DNA of 40,613 nucleotides. Origin: Leptolyngbya sp. FACHB-261 (GTDB taxonomy: Bacteria > Cyanobacteriota > Cyanobacteriia > FACHB-261). The notes under the pieces were generated by a model that saw only the letters and a program-made list of their open reading frames with translations, made no database searches and was not told where the DNA came from. Position numbers and translations under genes: made by a program. Where the stretch lies: contig NZ_JACJPL010000017.1 of the NCBI RefSeq assembly GCF_014696065.1, positions 1-40,613 on the forward strand, given 5' to 3'. Below, piece after piece: positions 31,446 to 40,582 of the stretch; position 1 is the stretch's first letter, and each line of letters opens with the position of its first letter.

Positions 31446-32660
31446 TTAGAACCGCAAAATTTCCCGCTCGTAATTTTCAGGTGTGGGCTCTACTTCCCAA
31501 ACCAGTGACTCGCCGGGTTCGAGGGCGACCTCAACGTAGAGTTGTTCTACAGCCTTAGTTGCAGTGGTTTCGTTATTCTCGAAGCCTTGCAAATCTTCGG
31601 TGAGCAACCTCAATTTGAAGCCGCTAGGAATGCGACCACCTAATGATGAGGCTCGCAGTTCGAAGCGCCAAGCTTGTACTGAATCGCCTTGCAGAACGCT
31701 GAGCTCGTAGGGTTCACCTGCAATCACCAAAGAGCGAGATAGAACGGTGAGGGGAGTGGCCTGTGCGGCTCCCCGCGATCCTAGGGGGTTGGCTTGCAGT
31801 TCCGCTCGTCCCCACCCAGACAATTCAGCCAGTTCTGAGACGCCAGCCTGTAGCCACTGCAGAATTGACCATTGCTCCTGTAGTCCTTGGCGACGTTCGT
31901 GTAGGCGCTGTCTCCAACCACCGTGAGCGATCAAAGCACCCCAAAGGGTAAAGGGCACAGCTAAACGGGGCAGGGCAAGCGATGGGTTCCCCAATCGCTG
32001 TAATAAATTTTCAGCCTGCGCCAAGGGCAGAACAGGTAGCGGTGCAATCGCCGCTCTCGTAACTTCCTCTGGGCAGCGCTGGCGGGCTATCAACAGCACA
32101 TTCAAGTCCGCGATTAGGGCATCTGCATCCAGGCTGTAGGTGCGATCAGCCGCGTCATAGTTTCCTAAAGTTTTCAATTGGTGATGGGTCGTGTATCCCC
32201 GCACTTGCATCCAGCCATCATCAGGGCTGACTGAACAGAAGAGGTAGTAGTCCGCTGCCCACTCGGGAATATCCACCCACTCCTGGGGCACACGCAGCTC
32301 GCTCATATCAATGCTTTCGCTGGGAATCAGCACCAGTCGCTCACCAGAGGGATGGGCAGAGGGAGCCTGAACGAATGGCAGCACCCTGCTTGCACTGAGT
32401 GTAATTGCTGTGCCAGTTGTGAATTGCCAGATGCTCGCTAGGGCTCTTGAACCTGGCCAGACCGTCGCTTCAGGGACCTGCTCCTGTAGCCAGGGCAGGA
32501 AAGCGTTTAAGCAAAGGCTGTTGATATAAGCGTTCCATCGATCCGAGGCGGCAGAGAGGCGCTGACTCTGCTGCCAAGCCTGCTCTTGCAGATCATCGGG
32601 GAGTTCCAATCCCAATTGGCTGGGATCGGCAAGTTCTAGTAAGGCTGGGTCAGAAGTCAT
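31446..32660 (-). CDS. DUF1822 family protein, 404 aa
   Basis: ATG at 32658-32660 is chosen because it overlaps the stop of the upstream sigma gene by four bases (ATGA), which implies translational coupling; a frame extension to 32717 is not needed. The protein fits cyanobacterial DUF1822: an N-terminal helical part ('AWQQSQRLSAASDRWNAYIN' then 'WL'), a middle with 'IDMSELRVPQEWVDIPEWAADYY', and a C-terminal beta region ('GIPSGFKLRLLTEDLQGFE' like). No catalytic motif or membrane segment is evident. DUF1822 genes often follow a sigma-like gene in cyanobacteria; a regulatory partner such as an anti-sigma factor is possible but unproven. Confidence 0.8.
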   Translation of the reverse strand: MTSDPALLELADPSQLGLELPDDLQEQAWQQSQRLSAASDRWNAYINSLCLNAFLPWLQEQVPEATVWPGSRALASIWQFTTGTAITLSASRVLPFVQAPSAHPSGERLVLIPSESIDMSELRVPQEWVDIPEWAADYYLFCSVSPDDGWMQVRGYTTHHQLKTLGNYDAADRTYSLDADALIADLNVLLIARQRCPEEVTRAAIAPLPVLPLAQAENLLQRLGNPSLALPRLAVPFTLWGALIAHGGWRQRLHERRQGLQEQWSILQWLQAGVSELAELSGWGRAELQANPLGSRGAAQATPLTVLSRSLVIAGEPYELSVLQGDSVQAWRFELRASSLGGRIPSGFKLRLLTEDLQGFENNETTATKAVEQLYVEVALEPGESLVWEVEPTPENYEREILRF

Positions 32661-33913
32661 GTCAAATCCTCTCTTGGCGTTTGAAGGGCAGGTTGGCGGT
32701 AGTAAACCTTCAACCATTCCTCCAGGGCTACACCGACATCTTTAATGAGGTCGGAAGTTAGAGGAGTATGCAGGGCACCCTGGCTCCACTGAACGAGCGT
32801 ATCGAGTAGGAACTGCCGGTGCTTGGTGAGCTGGCGAGAAATTGTGTACTGTTTGACGTCTAGCTGAGCGGCGATCTGTTGCTGGGTAAATTCCTGGCTG
32901 TAGTAGAGCTGAAGTAGTCTTTGCGCCTGGGGTTCAAGGCGACCCATCGCTTCAATCAAAACGCCAGTCATGTCAGCTCGCTGAGCTTGACGATGTTGCT
33001 CCTCTTCCTCAGCAATTTGAGCATCCAGACCTGAGATGACTGCTGGGTCGTTAGGTAAATTGTCGAGAAGTTCGCCTGAATTTAAGGAGTTAGGGGCATT
33101 GAGAGCGCTCACCTCAGGCGACATATACTGCCGTGCAGCTCTGGCACAGGCTTTGAGCCATTGTTCAAGCGTTTGGGCGGTCGGCAGAGGTTCGGACGAC
33201 GGTAGCTGCTCGTGACGTTGTTCCCGGTAGAGCGCGGCGATGGCCTCCCACACCGAGTCATCGGGCCGTGTCAGTTTGCGAGTGGCATTTGTGCGAGTTG
33301 GCGCGTAAACCGCATTGAAACAGCTCCAGGCCAGAAGATGGTAGGCAACTAGGGATGGTGCCAAGCCAGCATTTTGCAGAGACTCTACAAGCTTTTTCTT
33401 ACTCAGCTTGCGTAGCAAAGCCCAATCAGTGCAGATATCAACTTCTTGGCGCTGGCGCAGGAGCTCTCGGATAGCACTGCCGAAGACAGCACTAGCGTAA
33501 TTTTTCAGGGTCGCCCCCTGGCTGAGGTTAACTCCCTCTAAAACCTTGTCTATCTTACCAATGGCGATTTGAAAGCAGTCCGATAAAGCATATTGGTTAC
33601 TCGATAGGTTGGTAGCAATTTTGCGGGCAGCCCAATAACAGGTTTCTTGCAAATATGCAGATAGATGCGCTTTAGCCAGATCAGCCGCTTGAGCGCGAGG
33701 TTGCTCACTCAAGGCATCAGATATTTCAGCTTGCCAAGTCTTATGCCAGTAAAGGGCCCAAAAGTCCTCAGACTTTCTCGTTAGCTCAAGCTGCTCCAAA
33801 CAGTTCTTCATGCTACGACGCAGTTTGGCATCACTGACCCAAGTGCTGAAGCTGTCAGCATCAAACTGCACAAAGGTCGAAAAAATCTCAAGGATGCTTT
33901 GACGAGAGCGCAT
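32657..33913 (-). CDS. Sigma-70-like RNA polymerase sigma factor, 418 aa
   Basis: Residues about 95-160 look like a diverged sigma region 2 ('YALSDCFQIAIGKIDKVLEG', 'ATLKNYASAVFGSAIRELLR'). Residues 315-375 are a good region 4 helix-turn-helix ('GRLEPQAQRLLQLYYSQEFT', 'QQQIAAQLDVKQYTISRQL'). Between them a long linker (160-300) lacks an obvious region 3. The shape resembles group 3 or ECF-related sigma factors of cyanobacteria, but region 2 is weak, so it could also be a sigma-derived regulator. It overlaps the DUF1822 gene by 4 bp. Dense inverted repeats immediately upstream could be the control site. Confidence 0.75.
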   Translation of the reverse strand: MRSRQSILEIFSTFVQFDADSFSTWVSDAKLRRSMKNCLEQLELTRKSEDFWALYWHKTWQAEISDALSEQPRAQAADLAKAHLSAYLQETCYWAARKIATNLSSNQYALSDCFQIAIGKIDKVLEGVNLSQGATLKNYASAVFGSAIRELLRQRQEVDICTDWALLRKLSKKKLVESLQNAGLAPSLVAYHLLAWSCFNAVYAPTRTNATRKLTRPDDSVWEAIAALYREQRHEQLPSSEPLPTAQTLEQWLKACARAARQYMSPEVSALNAPNSLNSGELLDNLPNDPAVISGLDAQIAEEEEQHRQAQRADMTGVLIEAMGRLEPQAQRLLQLYYSQEFTQQQIAAQLDVKQYTISRQLTKHRQFLLDTLVQWSQGALHTPLTSDLIKDVGVALEEWLKVYYRQPALQTPREDLT

Positions 33914-34389: not shown

Positions 34390-35292
34390 ATGTTAAAAAT
34401 ATTGAAGGACGCTAAGCTTGGCACCAAGTTTAATTTGTTCTTAATGACTGTCTTTATTGGTGGCATCTTAGTCAGCGGGATTGCCCTGTCAAGAGTACTA
34501 GAGCAGGCCGCCCAGCAGGAGATGACCTCTAGAGCCCTCCTGCTGATCCAAAGCATGAACTCGGTCAGAACTTACACCAGTGAGCACATCAATCCACTCT
34601 TGGCACCGAGAGTAGAAACTGAACCGACGTTCACGCCAGAAACAGTGCCGGCCTATGCTGCCACCGAAGTTTTTGAGGATCTGCGCAAAAACAGCGATTA
34701 CAGCAACTTCTTTTATAAAGAAGCGACTCTCAACCCGACCAACCTGCGAGATAAGGCAGATGACTTTGAAGCTAAATTGGTAGAGCGTTTTCGTAGCGAG
34801 CCAGGACTCAAAGAACTGTCTGGTTTCCGTAGCCTCCCCGGCACAGAATCTTTTTACATTGCCCGTCCGCTAGCGATTACCAAAGAGAGCTGCTTGCAGT
34901 GTCACTCGACACCAGAGGCTGCTCCTAAGAGCCAGATTACGACTTATGGTACCGAGAATGGTTTTGGCTGGAAGCTCAATGAGATTGTTGCTGCCCAAGT
35001 TATCTCGGTTCCGTCTGGCGAAATCCTAAACAATGCTCAGCGGTCTCTTTCCCTGGTTATGGGGATTTTGATTGCGATCTTTACCATCGTCATTCTTCTG
35101 ATCAACCTCTTGCTGAGGCGAACGATTATCCGCAGGATCAGACGCATGAGCAAGGTTGCGCATGAGGTCAGCACTGGCAAAATGGATATCGACTTCGTAG
35201 ACGATACCAACGACGAAATTGGGGCCTTATCTAAGGCATTCGGGCGCATGAAGTCTAGCTATGAGATAGCGATGAAATTCATTAATCAGTAG
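34390..35292 (+). CDS. DUF3365 haem-binding sensor with HAMP domain, 300 aa
   Basis: This is a membrane sensor with no output domain. Helix 1 (about 15-35) leads to a periplasmic DUF3365 domain (45-215) with a haem-c motif CLQCH at 168-172. Helix 2 spans about 221-243, followed by a cytoplasmic HAMP linker (244-294; 'VAHEVSTGKMDIDFVDDTND', 'EIGALSKAFGRMKSSYEIAM'). The chain ends straight after HAMP, so a kinase, cyclase or methyl-accepting output is missing; the signal must pass to a separate partner, or the gene is truncated. It is convergent with the Ser/Thr kinase gene. Redox or gas sensing is typical of the family. Confidence 0.9.
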   Translation: MLKILKDAKLGTKFNLFLMTVFIGGILVSGIALSRVLEQAAQQEMTSRALLLIQSMNSVRTYTSEHINPLLAPRVETEPTFTPETVPAYAATEVFEDLRKNSDYSNFFYKEATLNPTNLRDKADDFEAKLVERFRSEPGLKELSGFRSLPGTESFYIARPLAITKESCLQCHSTPEAAPKSQITTYGTENGFGWKLNEIVAAQVISVPSGEILNNAQRSLSLVMGILIAIFTIVILLINLLLRRTIIRRIRRMSKVAHEVSTGKMDIDFVDDTNDEIGALSKAFGRMKSSYEIAMKFINQ

Positions 35293-35366: not shown

Positions 35367-36806
35367 TCAGAAGAGAAGCTGCCGACGAAACTCAGCCCTA
35401 CTAGCCTCAGGAATTTCTGCCATTAAGGTCTCTACCAGCTCCGTTGAGGAGATTTGAGGCTTAGACTTCAGAGCTCTCCGGACTAGAAAAGTTGCGATTG
35501 GCCCCACAAGCTCAGCCAAAGCTTGCTCACACTGGTTAATGAAATCCTTGCTGGCCTGATTATTGAAGCTTGATAATTGCTGGGTTGCTTCCCGGATACT
35601 CAGCTGCTGCGATCTGGACTGAGCTTGAGGCTGGGCTTTGGGCTCTAAAAATAGAGATGTTGCTCGCTGTTGGAATTCTCGTTGCTGGTCGGGACGGAGA
35701 TGCATCACTAAGCTGTCCACCACTTCCTGAAGACCAGGAGCCTTTGCCGAAACTTGTCGCAGCACAGTGGGCGCGATTGGCCCGACTAGGTCAGTAAAAA
35801 TTTGCTCGAGCTGCGAATATTGTTGTGCGGAAAGCTCCGAATGAGACTGCGGCTCTACTGAACTTAAGACAGGCGGAACCGAACCCCGGTCGGCTTCAGC
35901 AGGTAAGAATAGATCCGTTTCTGACCCCATTGGCAAGGGCTGAGACGCCTCCTGCTGGACAAAAGCCGAAGAAAGGTTAGGAGAAGCACGAACTAACGGC
36001 CGGAGCACTTCTAGAACTTCTGCCGCCGTTTGATAGCGGTCTTTAAAGTAGAAATGCACCATCCTGGTGATCACCGCTGCAAGCTCAGCGCTGACTTCAG
36101 CTTGGTGCTGCCAGAGAATCTCGCCAGTCTGAGCATCCTTCTCGAAGCGGGTGGGGTGCAACCCTATGAGGGCCTGAATCGCGATCATGCCCAAAGCATA
36201 GATATCGCTATTGGAACGGGGCATGCCATAGGCCTGTTCATTCGGCATATAGCCAGGTGTGCCAATGGCAACGGTCAAACTGTTCTGCCCCGGCGCTGTG
36301 AGTTGGGTCTGGATTTGCTTAACTGCCCCGAAATCAATCAAGACTAATTTGCTATCTTGTTGCCGTCTAAGAACGTTGGTCGGCTTGATATCTCGGTGGA
36401 TCATGCCGTGGCCATGCACAAACCCCAGAACGCTCAAAACCTCGTACAACAGGTGAGTAACCTGGCCTTCGGTCCAGCGCTGACCGCGTTTTAACTCTGC
36501 TTGCAGAGAATGGCCTTGAATGAATTCCTGCACCAGGTAAAACTCCTGGTTTTCCTCCAAGTAGGCCAGCAACCGAGGGATCTGATCATGACTACCCAGT
36601 TGTTCTAAAACGGTTGCTTCACTGATAAAAAGACGCCGAGCTGTTTGCAAGAACGCTGGGTCGTTACTAGCAGGTTTGAGATGTTTGACGACACAAATCG
36701 GACGACCGGGACGGCGAATATCTTCAGCAAGATAAGTTTGACCAAAGCCACCCTCACTCAAGACTTGGGTGATCTGATAACGTCCGTCTAGTAACTCTCC
36801 TTGCAT
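35367..36806 (-). CDS. Ser/Thr protein kinase with duplicated LVGPIA C-terminal module, 479 aa
   Basis: Residues 1-270 form a Hanks-type kinase domain: a Gly-rich loop (LSEGGFGQTY, 16-25), K41, HRD at 137-139 with 'HRDIKPTNVL', DFG at 158-160, and 'GTPGYMPNEQ' in place of the usual GTPxYMAPEQ. All catalytic residues are present. No membrane helix follows, so it is soluble. After a Ser/Pro-rich linker come two copies of a helical module: 332-386 ('LEQIFTDLVGPIAPTVLRQ') and 425-479 ('CEQALAELVGPIATFLVRR'). The same pair ends the upstream caspase-like protein. The gene starts 97 bases after the caspase gene on the same strand, so the two are probably co-transcribed and may bind each other through this module. 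Confidence 0.92.
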   Translation of the reverse strand: MQGELLDGRYQITQVLSEGGFGQTYLAEDIRRPGRPICVVKHLKPASNDPAFLQTARRLFISEATVLEQLGSHDQIPRLLAYLEENQEFYLVQEFIQGHSLQAELKRGQRWTEGQVTHLLYEVLSVLGFVHGHGMIHRDIKPTNVLRRQQDSKLVLIDFGAVKQIQTQLTAPGQNSLTVAIGTPGYMPNEQAYGMPRSNSDIYALGMIAIQALIGLHPTRFEKDAQTGEILWQHQAEVSAELAAVITRMVHFYFKDRYQTAAEVLEVLRPLVRASPNLSSAFVQQEASQPLPMGSETDLFLPAEADRGSVPPVLSSVEPQSHSELSAQQYSQLEQIFTDLVGPIAPTVLRQVSAKAPGLQEVVDSLVMHLRPDQQREFQQRATSLFLEPKAQPQAQSRSQQLSIREATQQLSSFNNQASKDFINQCEQALAELVGPIATFLVRRALKSKPQISSTELVETLMAEIPEASRAEFRRQLLF

Positions 36807-36903
36807 AGTGCAATTCGCCTACAGCGCCCTGCTGAGTATCTTGCAGCCAAACCTGAATCCTGGAGCACCTGAATCCTGAAATTTGTTTACCTCCAAGTAA
36901 GGT

Positions 36904-39072
36904 TCAAGCAATCAGGCGCTGACGAAATTCGGATGCCTTTTGAGGTTCAGAAATCGCCGTGACCAAAGACTCCACTAACTCGATCTGGGAAAGGCGAGGA
37001 TTAGTTTGCAGAACCTTCCGAACCAGAAAAGTCGCAATTGGTCCCACAAGCTCTGCCAGCTCTCGTTCGCATTGATGAACGAAGCCTTCAGAGATTGCTT
37101 GACCGCTTAGGGTTTGTGAGGCATGTAACCTTGAGTCCTGAGTTTTCAGACCGGTTGTTTTTGAAGCGGTCGAACTAGAGTGATCTGAGCGGGTCTGCGG
37201 TCGAATGGCACTGTTCTCTAGCAACGAAGTTGCCCACCACTCAAACTCGATTCGTCGCTTCGCAGGTAGGTAAGGCAACAAATTCTCAACTAGTTCTTTG
37301 GGGTTGGGAGCCCGAGCTGAGCCTTGACGCAATAGGGTGGGAGCAATCGGCCCGACCAAGTCTGCCAGTTCTTGCTCCAGGCTGGAGTATTGCTCTGGTG
37401 AAAGAGACCAACTAACTTGGGACTGTGACCTGGCTGGAGTGGAGGCCAGACCAGAAGACCCAGAAGGCTTTACTGCTTCCGAACTGTTGAGTTCTGACTT
37501 TGGGCCGGACAAGACTTCTATTAGACCTTGGTTTCCCGACAAGTAGGCGTGGAGCGTGATCTGCGTTTCGGCCAGATGGGTTTTGAGTTGGGCAATCCAT
37601 TCGGCAGCTAGAAGCCCAGTTTGTCGCTTCCCAATCACTAGGGTTTGTAAAAGGGCTTGGGCGAACTGGTCTGGTTCTGTGGCTGGAGCAGCGGCAGCAA
37701 TTAAACATTGTCCCTGCTCAGGCCCCTGTTTCAGGTCTTCTACCCAGTCAGCGAGGGTAGTGGCTCCAGGACAGTCCAGGATGAGGATCTGCTGGGTCAT
37801 GTCTGAGCGGCGTAGTTGTTGCCTCAACCAAGAGCGACTGATTTTCACGCCTTCGCTCAGGACAAGCCAGGCTTCGCCATTCTCGGTTTCCTCGATCTCG
37901 CCGCGTAGGTACAGTAATGCGGTTGCTGTCTTCTTGGTGGTAGTAAAGCTGGTAAATAGTTCGGTTTCAGAGGAACTTTGCCAATGCAGGCAAGTGTGAA
38001 TCGCTCGTTGAGGTTCTGCCTCTGACTTCGCCGGGGGGCACCAGTAGCCCAAATCGAAGCCGCCAATGCCAGCCAGTACTTTGCTCAGGGCGATGGCTTT
38101 CTGGTTGTCCGTTGATCCCTGCACCACCAGAGCTTGTCGGGGATGCTGGGGCCTCGTTTTGTCTGGCTTTAGGCCGAGAACCAGTTCGCCAATCCCTTCA
38201 ACGATCCGTTTTGGCGTTTGTTGCGAGTATTCGGGATAGAAGTCATTTTTCCCCTGACTCCGTTTTTGCTGATTGATCAGCCGAACCTGCTGGTTCGTCT
38301 TATCGATGTATTGCAGGGTTTGCTGGTAGACGTATTTGTAGAGGCCGTCTGCATCGATTACGCCTTGAGCATCTGCGGCTTCGCCCCTGAGTCCACGCAT
38401 CAGGTAGTAGGTAAAGACGCCGTGGCCTAGCTCAGGAAATTCCCAAGAGCGCTGCCCTTGATCGCAGGATAGTAAAGCATAAAACCCTTTGCTGCGAGCT
38501 GCCCGTTGCCGCAGGACATGCACAAGCGTAGGGGTTGGGTCAGGACGAGTCAGCACGGGAGCTGCCTCACCTCTAGCACCCCTCATGGTCATGTCGCCGC
38601 TGTGGCAGGCATCTAGCCAAACCAACTGCGCATGGGCTTCGCATTGGTCTAGAGTCTGTAATAAGCCTTGAACCGGTAATCCCGTGCCGACGAGGTTGCT
38701 CTTGTCAGTATCAGATAAGCAGAGAACGGACTGTTGGCTCTCAGCATCCAGCACCCCATGCCCGGAGAAGTAGAACAGGACAGTATCCTGCGCCTTGGCT
38801 TCTGCTACCACTCGCCTCAGGCTAGCTCGAACTGTTGCTAGCTTGGGAAGCTGTTCGGAAAAATCGTGGTGAGCAATGGTTTCTTTGTTAGGAAATGCCC
38901 TGGTTGCCTCAGCCAACGCCTTGCCTAGCCCCTGACAATCTGGAGCGGAGTAGCACAAGGCGGGCAGGCTGTTGTCCTGGTATTGGTTGACCCCTACCAG
39001 CAGAACCCAGAGTTTGGCCTCACCGGTTTCTAGGGCTTGTGTAGAGCAACTGGTTCTAAGACTAATAGGCAT
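36904..39072 (-). CDS. Caspase-like (peptidase C14) protein with pseudo-caspase repeat and LVGPIA module, 722 aa
   Basis: Residues 18-280 are a caspase-family (orthocaspase) domain: 'LWVLLVGVNQYQD', catalytic H105 in YFSGHG and catalytic C156 in WLDACHSG, so it should be active, probably with Arg/Lys specificity as in metacaspases. Residues about 300-550 repeat the fold in degenerate form: 'TALLYLRGEI' replaces FYFSGHG and 'ILILDCPGA' replaces WLDACHSG, so the second domain is likely inactive. Two helical LVGPIA modules end the protein (563-617 and 664-722), matching those of the kinase encoded next. No signal peptide or membrane helix is visible. Likely a cytoplasmic signalling or cell-death/conflict protease (inference). 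Confidence 0.92.
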   Translation of the reverse strand: MPISLRTSCSTQALETGEAKLWVLLVGVNQYQDNSLPALCYSAPDCQGLGKALAEATRAFPNKETIAHHDFSEQLPKLATVRASLRRVVAEAKAQDTVLFYFSGHGVLDAESQQSVLCLSDTDKSNLVGTGLPVQGLLQTLDQCEAHAQLVWLDACHSGDMTMRGARGEAAPVLTRPDPTPTLVHVLRQRAARSKGFYALLSCDQGQRSWEFPELGHGVFTYYLMRGLRGEAADAQGVIDADGLYKYVYQQTLQYIDKTNQQVRLINQQKRSQGKNDFYPEYSQQTPKRIVEGIGELVLGLKPDKTRPQHPRQALVVQGSTDNQKAIALSKVLAGIGGFDLGYWCPPAKSEAEPQRAIHTCLHWQSSSETELFTSFTTTKKTATALLYLRGEIEETENGEAWLVLSEGVKISRSWLRQQLRRSDMTQQILILDCPGATTLADWVEDLKQGPEQGQCLIAAAAPATEPDQFAQALLQTLVIGKRQTGLLAAEWIAQLKTHLAETQITLHAYLSGNQGLIEVLSGPKSELNSSEAVKPSGSSGLASTPARSQSQVSWSLSPEQYSSLEQELADLVGPIAPTLLRQGSARAPNPKELVENLLPYLPAKRRIEFEWWATSLLENSAIRPQTRSDHSSSTASKTTGLKTQDSRLHASQTLSGQAISEGFVHQCERELAELVGPIATFLVRKVLQTNPRLSQIELVESLVTAISEPQKASEFRQRLIA

Positions 39073-39615: not shown

Positions 39616-39840
39616 TTAGACTCCGATTGCCGTGGAAACCGAGGCGGCGGTACCAGCGTCAACACCAACTGCTGATGCTCCAATAGCTTGGCTGAAGTTA
39701 TCGCTGCCGGTCAGAACTAGGAAGTCGCCATCAGCGAAGGCTTGAGAGTCAGCGAAGGCTGCAGCAGCGCCACCGGCAACACCTTCAAGTTCAGCATCAG
39801 ACAGTTCAATGTTTTGGGCTTGGCTCAGTTCTGTGTTCAT
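39616..39840 (-). CDS. Double-glycine leader peptide 1 (bacteriocin-like), 74 aa
   Basis: The leader MNTELSQAQNIELSDAELEG then VAGG (24 residues) is typical of precursors cleaved after GG by C39-peptidase ABC exporters. The predicted core of 50 residues starts AAAAFADSQAFADGDF and is rich in Ala, Gly, Ser and Val with alternating small residues, no cysteine and no aromatic cluster. The leader is nearly identical to that of peptides 2 and 3, while the core is clearly different. GGAGC is placed about 7 bases upstream. No exporter, maturase or immunity gene is in the window. A secreted signal, bacteriocin or RiPP precursor are the options. Confidence 0.8.
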   Translation of the reverse strand: MNTELSQAQNIELSDAELEGVAGGAAAAFADSQAFADGDFLVLTGSDNFSQAIGASAVGVDAGTAASVSTAIGV

Positions 39841-39921: not shown

Positions 39922-40140
39922 TTAAGCGCCGATAGAGGTAGAGTTACCTTTAGAACCAGCAGCATTGACGCCATCAGCTGAGATAGCAAAGGTTTCGTTG
40001 TTAACGTCAGTCGCAGCTACGAATTGACCGAAGGCGAAAGCATCGCCAGTTGCATTACCGAGAGCGACGCCGCCAGCAACGCCTTCGAGTTCGGCATCAG
40101 ACAGTTCAACACTTTGGGCTTGGCTCAGTTCTGTGTTCAT
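39922..40140 (-). CDS. Double-glycine leader peptide 2 (bacteriocin-like), 72 aa
   Basis: ATG 40140 is chosen over the open frame to 40215 because GGAGC lies 7 bases upstream and the leader MNTELSQAQSVELSDAELEG VAGG then begins exactly as in peptide 1. The core (48 residues) reads VALGNATGDAFAFGQFVAAT and continues with 'DVNNETFAISADGVNAAGSK'. It lacks cysteine. It differs from peptide 3 by only a few residues (Ala-Asp for Ala-Gly near the middle, and a different end). The 5' region matches the other copies, pointing to tandem duplication. Confidence 0.8.
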   Translation of the reverse strand: MNTELSQAQSVELSDAELEGVAGGVALGNATGDAFAFGQFVAATDVNNETFAISADGVNAAGSKGNSTSIGA

Positions 40141-40256
40141 TGGATTGCTCCTAGTAGTGAGTAAGTGAGTGAGATGGGTGAGGTTATCTGAAGCAGAGTA
40201 TTTTAACCGCTTCACTTTCTACAGAGGATTGACTCCTGCTGTTTATGCAGCTTGGT

Positions 40257-40475
40257 TTAAGCAGCGATGGAGGTAGAGCTACCTTTAGAACCAGCAGCAT
40301 TGACGCCACCAGCTGAGATAGCGAAGGTTTCGTTGTTAACGTCAGTGGCCGCTACAAATTGACCGAAGGCGAAAGCATCACCGGTTGCATTACCGAGAGC
40401 GACGCCGCCAGCAACGCCTTCGAGTTCAGCATCAGACAGTTCAACGCTTTGGGCTTGGCTCAGTTCAGTGTTCAT
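40257..40475 (-). CDS. Double-glycine leader peptide 3 (bacteriocin-like), 72 aa
   Basis: ATG 40475 gives the same 24-residue leader as peptide 2 and a nearly identical core, ending GSKGSSTSIAA instead of GSKGNSTSIGA. GGAGC is 7 bases upstream. The upstream non-coding segment (agtgagt direct repeats, then 'gaagcagag..ttttaaccgcttcac') is shared with peptide 2. The high DNA identity shows a recent duplication. Same functional options as for the other copies. Confidence 0.8.
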   Translation of the reverse strand: MNTELSQAQSVELSDAELEGVAGGVALGNATGDAFAFGQFVAATDVNNETFAISAGGVNAAGSKGSSTSIAA

Positions 40476-40582
40476 TGGATTGCTCCTAGTAGTGGGTAAG
40501 TGAGTGAGGTTATCTGAAGCAGAGTGTTTTAACCGCTTCACTTTCTACAGAGGATTGACTCTTGCCGTTTATGCAGCTTGGC

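Follow-up and report, generated by a model that had tools for sequence, protein, structure and literature searches.

The STAC domain is represented structurally by Af1502 (PDB 5A1Q). The gene of Af1502 is next to that of Af1503, a receptor whose cytosolic part consists of HAMP only, and coupling to STAC proteins is frequent among such HAMP-only receptors (PMC4834066). In the cryo-electron microscopy structure of CbrA, the STAC domain packs beneath the membrane transporter, and a relay of motion to the kinase is proposed by the authors (PMC13022988). According to a recent preprint, Tll0287 (DUF3365) is a Cache domain that binds heme c covalently, and a HAMP-bearing member from Pseudomonas azotoformans bound nitric oxide (NO) without forming a stable oxy complex (PMC12889525). 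For this sCache_heme family (PF11845), fused outputs or stand-alone domains are described, and the accessible text of the preprint names no separate output partner for the HAMP-ended form (PMC12889525). The locus considered here lies in contig NZ_JACJPL010000017.1 of the cyanobacterium Leptolyngbya sp. FACHB-261, of which a stretch of 40,613 nucleotides, referred to as the window, was analysed. It encodes a Ser/Thr kinase and an orthocaspase with the same pair of C-terminal modules, and next to them a Tll0287-HAMP receptor (Table 1). We describe the module as STAC-like and propose that both enzymes are probably clients of this receptor. None of the three components, STAC domains, sCache_heme receptors and orthocaspases, is new in itself. 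STAC-like tails on soluble kinases, cyclases, caspases and CHAT proteases, and likewise a separate output partner of HAMP-ended Tll0287 receptors, are not described in the accessible text of the open-licence PubMed Central literature, and earlier reports may exist elsewhere.

An earlier interpretation made from the letters of this DNA, the sequence-only reading, had stated that the kinase and the caspase both end in two copies of a module with the core LVGPIA, in genes 97 bases apart on one strand. Both statements proved correct: the open reading frames lie on the minus strand at this distance, and the core is found at residues 572 and 675 of the caspase and at residues 340 and 433 of the kinase. 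From the residue composition, about 0.0001 copies of LVGPIA are expected in both proteins together, which rules out chance or low complexity as the source of the motif. The first copies of the two proteins read LVGPIAPTLLRQ and LVGPIAPTVLRQ, and the second copies read LVGPIATFLVR in caspase and kinase alike. Each copy is more than a motif, namely a domain of about 60 residues; 'ELVE.L' is not a separate element but forms a helix further along in this domain. The first copies of caspase and kinase are 55-56% identical, and across the 390 cyanobacterial genomes searched, the best non-self match of the caspase copy is the kinase next door (55.4 bits), the next genome following with 46.9 bits. In 53 copies the core takes the form V/I-G-P-I/V/M-A, where G and P never vary and A hardly ever. 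Scans of these copies against Pfam, NCBIfam and PHROGs gave no coherent family, so that carriers are likely annotated by their enzyme domain alone. The family PF26309 (DUF8082) was considered for the module and dropped, as it is absent from the Pfam version used.

In the phylogenetic tree of the module, first copies and second copies fall mostly into separate clades across kinases, cyclases and caspases. The pair is therefore old and has been transferred as a unit, as the sequence-only reading had supposed from the two proteins of the window. The type II (second) copies of the window's caspase and kinase are sisters with a support of 0.80, and such a relationship between copies from adjacent genes is not the general rule. 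A general tendency of caspase and kinase modules to evolve in concert in the same genome was considered and rejected, as the tree gave no case outside this window.

The four module copies of the window are predicted by AlphaFold2 as confident helical domains (mean pLDDT 94.7). The prediction of the module pair, a check that had been suggested together with the original observation, gave two separate helical domains with a disordered linker between them. The helices of the module II model span residues 107-121, 124-135, 141-151 and 155-166; in the module I model, DSSP reads helices 1 and 2 as one long helix. Of the chains compared with module II by VIA alignment, 5A1Q was the best (Z 7.5, root-mean-square deviation 2.4, 60 of 68 residues), followed by a match with Z 5.9 over 48 residues. 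For module I, Foldseek ranked 5A1Q first by probability (0.60), and its alignment covered 59 residues at Z 5.4. However, NorQ reached Z 6.2 and 5.7 at 11% identity, equal to or above 5A1Q, and the fold match of module I alone is therefore not decisive. Foldseek alone gave no significant match for the tandem model against the PDB (all E above 0.8), where the VIA re-alignment puts 5A1Q first. At the sequence level, searches of 177,635 PDB sequences with two module profiles that overlap in part both ranked Af1502 first, with marginal E-values (0.006 and 0.02) for a stretch of 27 residues. Af1502 has IGPIA at the position aligned with the module core.

Since sequence motif, fold and genome context agree, the module is called STAC-like. 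It resembles STAC in being a four-helix domain of 60-70 residues, built from two hairpins with a GPxxA-type motif joining helices 1 and 2, and it resembles the stand-alone STAC branch in its genomic coupling to HAMP-only receptors. Unlike STAC in CbrA and CrbS, it is joined neither to an SLC5 transporter nor to a histidine kinase in any of the carriers seen here, for which reason it is not placed in the fused SLC5-STAC branch. It also differs from known STAC domains in occurring mostly as a C-terminal tandem of two or three copies on soluble enzymes, and in its association with a heme-c Cache receptor.

The receptor gene of the window is convergent with the kinase gene. The encoded protein consists of an N-terminal transmembrane segment, a periplasmic Tll0287/sCache_heme domain with the heme-c motif, a second transmembrane segment and HAMP, and ends about 12 residues past HAMP without an output domain. 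With the NO-binding protein of P. azotoformans it shares the family domain, the CXXCH motif and the transmembrane-HAMP architecture. The linkage of such genes to the module was counted in 45 genomes with complete gene lists, at a distance of up to 4 kb. A module protein lies within this distance of 42 of the 68 HAMP-length Tll0287 genes, 41 of the 42 being convergent, and of none of the fused (0/20) or short (0/18) Tll0287 genes (0/38 together), against about 0.3 linkages expected by chance (Fisher p 8e-12). A fused Tll0287 protein in Kovacikia likewise has no module neighbour. HAMP-length Tll0287 genes occur in 44 of the 45 module-positive genomes and in only 6 of 60 genomes scored as module-negative. 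In five of these six, the Tll0287 protein carries an extra conserved tail after HAMP, and in the sixth, the Tll0287 gene is HAMP-ended and adjoins a module protein overlooked in the initial scan. On the Rippkaea plasmid pP880101, the caspase gene is about 5.5 kb from the Tll0287 gene across the record start, a pair that appears distant in linear coordinates. In HAMP-ended receptors the post-HAMP segment is well conserved (consensus DEIGxLAxAFNRMKxSLxIAM) and is a candidate docking surface. The extra tail of the module-negative Tll0287-HAMP proteins (L202-L206) reads 'EI.E.DYFQ.L..KA', and a similar stretch is seen in the FHA-module protein of the source genome (L006, 811-1656); judged by its sequence, this stretch is possibly another docking element.

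Whether this linkage follows the kinase or its tail can be judged from 61 related kinases with other tails, which were found through similarity to the window kinase, are mostly 54-63% identical to it in the kinase domain, and carry no module. For 46 of these kinases, 3 kb or more of sequence is available to the left and to the right, and none of the 46 adjoins a Tll0287 gene, so the linkage follows the module and not the kinase. On plasmids of Alpha- and Betaproteobacteria, all six HAMP-ended Tll0287 genes directly precede a Ser/Thr kinase with two C-terminal module copies (profile E 4e-26 to 4e-17), on the same strand and with distances from an 8-base overlap to a 42-base gap. The pairing thus persists under a different gene order and in another phylum. 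Five of the six pairs (L267, L269, L270, L271, L272) are located among type VI secretion genes, where they resemble the Ser/Thr kinases that occur in such clusters with TagF and a PP2C phosphatase; they differ in their STAC-like pair and their position directly downstream of a Tll0287-HAMP gene, and the cyanobacterial locus has no visible secretion cluster. At two of these five loci, a PP2C phosphatase gene follows the module-kinase.

With up to 16 candidates scored per genome, the module was found by profile search in at least 117 of the 390 cyanobacterial genomes, among which the source genome is the sole member of its own family and order. Four carriers occur in this genome. Besides the caspase and the kinase of the window, these are a second kinase, which is encoded on another contig and adjoins a further Tll0287 gene, and an FHA protein in which the module occurs once. 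In other genomes, the module is found on Ser/Thr kinases of two kinds (A and B), CHAT proteases, class III cyclases, fusions of kinase and cyclase, and caspases that carry it two or three times, as well as on a CHAT-kinase fusion (L183) that adjoins a Tll0287 gene. Cyclases carry the module pair beside the receptor gene. The search of gene contexts proposed in the sequence-only reading gave a divided result. A module-kinase lies within 10 kb of the caspase in four of the eight module-caspase genomes (G000, G126, G250 and G047), but most module-kinases have no protease neighbour, and in G033 a module-caspase is present and no module-kinase was detected. In four genomes (G126, G250, G196 and G033), it is the caspase itself that stands directly opposite the receptor gene.

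The motifs VVKHLK, HRD and DFG were all found in the kinase of the window, and the caspase has an intact catalytic dyad in its p20 domain (His in SGHG at 103, Cys in DACHSG at 154), by which it is predicted to be active. In the second half of the caspase body, LYLRGEI and LDCPGA replace the His and Cys segments. Aligned with hhalign in a set of 13 relatives, the first and the second half match with P 2e-4 and a probability of 47%, which tentatively suggests that the second half is a degenerate caspase repeat. The same body is found with three tails, namely an nSTAND1 NTPase with WD40 (about 1750 residues), GUN4, and the STAC-like pair. Since the STAND/WD40 and GUN4 tails are sensor or regulatory parts, the STAC-like pair likely has the same role, and it is most likely the input and activation module of the caspase, acting by recruitment or clustering. 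In its body, which is common to nSTAND1-WD40 and GUN4 proteins, the protein is like the cyanobacterial orthocaspases with C-terminal sensor tails (PMC8283722); its tail is unlike the accessory domains of that survey, whose accessible text does not describe this architecture. The fusion of the same caspase body to the tetrapyrrole-binding GUN4 domain is encoded at L263 (7523-9724).

The interpretation that we consider probable is that of a split receptor, in which the HAMP output is read by the STAC-like tails of separate effectors and the kinase and the caspase are two such clients. Judging from the protein family, the covalent heme c of the Tll0287-HAMP protein would sense NO or the redox state in the periplasm. 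This signal would change the HAMP coiled coil, where the receptor protein ends, and the STAC-like pairs would dock on, or leave, the HAMP/post-HAMP segment or a site near it, so that the attached enzymes would be altered in their activity via recruitment or clustering. The enzyme ahead of the module pair would be exchangeable, and a single receptor would here serve both the kinase and the orthocaspase.

Several points weigh against this interpretation. The physical contact between module and receptor is something that we infer, and the NO signal is known from a proteobacterial homologue and would extend to the window receptor by family membership. The STAC label leans on a marginal E-value, and small helical folds at such Z-scores can match by chance. 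Moreover, 32 of the 78 module proteins in the 45 genomes have no Tll0287 gene within 4 kb, and the FHA protein and several single-module kinases may therefore have other partners. Mirror-tree comparisons of the receptor tail with the module gave partial correlations of 0.38-0.43, barely above the 0.34 of the sensor domain; they say nothing specific and are equally explained by shared phylogeny.

Among the alternatives, the one that survives best, although we consider it improbable, is that of the sequence-only reading, in which the module joins the kinase directly to the caspase and places one enzyme under the control of its partner, for example through phosphorylation of the caspase. The adjacency of the two genes, the four genomes with a module-kinase near the caspase, the CHAT-kinase-module fusion and the sister position of the window's type II copies are in its favour. 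However, cyclases have the same pair beside the receptor gene, the caspase takes the receptor-adjacent place in four genomes, one of them the genome in which no module-kinase was detected, and Af1502 is a monomer in solution, so that homotypic pairing is without precedent in the STAC family in what is available of that source (PMC4834066). With most module-kinases lacking a protease neighbour and the Tll0287-HAMP receptor, which the sequence-only reading had not connected with the module, as the constant partner, the claim that the main task of the module is to join these two enzymes is not supported. It is possible that kinase and caspase also influence each other, because of the four genomes and the protease-kinase-module fusion, and this is not needed to explain the module.

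Less likely still is a role as a new effector-associated domain in a conflict system (immunity or cell death), in which the module would act by homotypic oligomerisation and the Tll0287 linkage would be secondary. As in effector-associated domains and bacterial Death-like domains (PMC7159879, PMC8195603), a small, non-enzymatic helical module occurs in adjacent effector and signalling genes, with several paralogues per genome, and such systems typically employ caspase, CHAT and kinase effectors (PMC7159879). Against this, no STAND, MoxR-vWA, GAP1 or similar core was seen among the window's neighbouring genes that were scanned, and no profile of such a family matched in the searched libraries. 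Furthermore, the constant partner is a membrane-bound HAMP-only receptor in two phyla, cyclases are among the effectors, the proteobacterial carriers are kinases that are mostly located in secretion clusters, and it is not a general rule that copies from adjacent genes are closest relatives. From the comparison with effector-associated domains made in the sequence-only reading, what can be kept is the general logic, that a shared non-enzymatic module recruits varied effectors to one signalling system (as in Kaur et al., 2020, PMC7159879, as far as its accessible text goes); the domain itself resembles STAC and not a named effector-associated domain. That the module is a general tail for membrane anchoring or scaffolding, with the Tll0287 neighbourhood reflecting co-inheritance without physical coupling, is hardly credible: the unlinked module proteins and the STAC domain of CbrA, which packs on a transporter and not on HAMP (PMC13022988), would fit it, but the linkage is limited to the HAMP-ended form and recurs with another gene order in another phylum, which is not predicted from co-inheritance alone.

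If the STAC-like tails do read the HAMP output, a wider proposal can be made, which we offer tentatively and hold to be somewhat less probable than its opposite. Cyanobacteria and Proteobacteria would possess a class of split transmembrane receptors parallel to Af1503/Af1502, with exchangeable STAC-tailed enzymes; here, one heme receptor would drive a kinase and a caspase as a gas- or redox-gated protease switch, and the FHA-module protein would read the phosphothreonine output of the kinase. HAMP-ended receptors, such as the archaeal Af1503, have so far been without a recognised output, and the module gives a large bacterial set of them a testable partner that is defined and comes with many natural effector swaps. 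For bacterial caspases, most activation signals are unknown, and the module also provides one of these proteases with a candidate input; for the kinases encoded in type VI secretion clusters, it offers a candidate trigger.

Table 1. Coordinates of the receptor-kinase-caspase locus and of the accessory genes in the window.
Feature	Position	Strand	Basis
DUF1822 protein	31446..32717	-	Pfam DUF1822 E 2.7e-107
Sigma-70-like protein	32657..33913	-	TIGR02937 E 2.1e-29
Receptor gene	34390..35292	+	Pfam Tll0287-like E 6.5e-46, HAMP E 1.7e-9; CLQCH at residues 168-172
Ser/Thr kinase with C-terminal module pair	35367..36806	-	Pkinase E 8.8e-36, residues 10-264
Kinase module copy 2, type II, STAC-like	35370..35552	-	Profile match E 3.0e-23
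Kinase module copy 1, type I, STAC-like	35649..35834	-	Profile match E 7.5e-21
Orthocaspase	36904..39072	-	Peptidase_C14 E 1.6e-14
Caspase module copy 2, type II, STAC-like	36907..37095	-	Profile match E 4.9e-23; structure match 5A1Q
Caspase module copy 1, type I, STAC-like	37219..37404	-	Profile match E 2.2e-22; AlphaFold2 mean pLDDT 94.7
Degenerate caspase-like repeat of the caspase (tentative)	37483..38145	-	hhalign of two body halves

The genes for the sigma-70-like and the DUF1822 protein form an accessory pair that the neighbour search found at seven of the eight module-caspase loci. The pair is also present at the second module-kinase locus of the source genome. Promoter and terminator scans gave results no better than those of shuffled sequences. 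Upstream of the caspase and nearly reaching the contig end, three small open reading frames with the leader 'ELSDAELEGVAGG' follow each other in tandem on the minus strand (39616-39840, 39922-40215 and 40257-40541); two of the three, when scanned, gave a weak match to CTB-family bacteriocin precursors below the cut-off. The peptides encoded upstream of the Rippkaea caspase showed, by eye, no kinship to these bacteriocin-like peptides. The single-module FHA protein of the source genome (L160, contig C28, 7289-13486) adjoins two NHLP/NHLM-type bacteriocin exporter genes; together with the peptides of the window, this neighbourhood hints at a possible contact between the module network and the export of peptides. 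Further away in the window, between 3166 and 17776, there is a series of large DUF11, DUF7925, Invasin_D3-like and beta-helix proteins, which are probably surface or secreted proteins.

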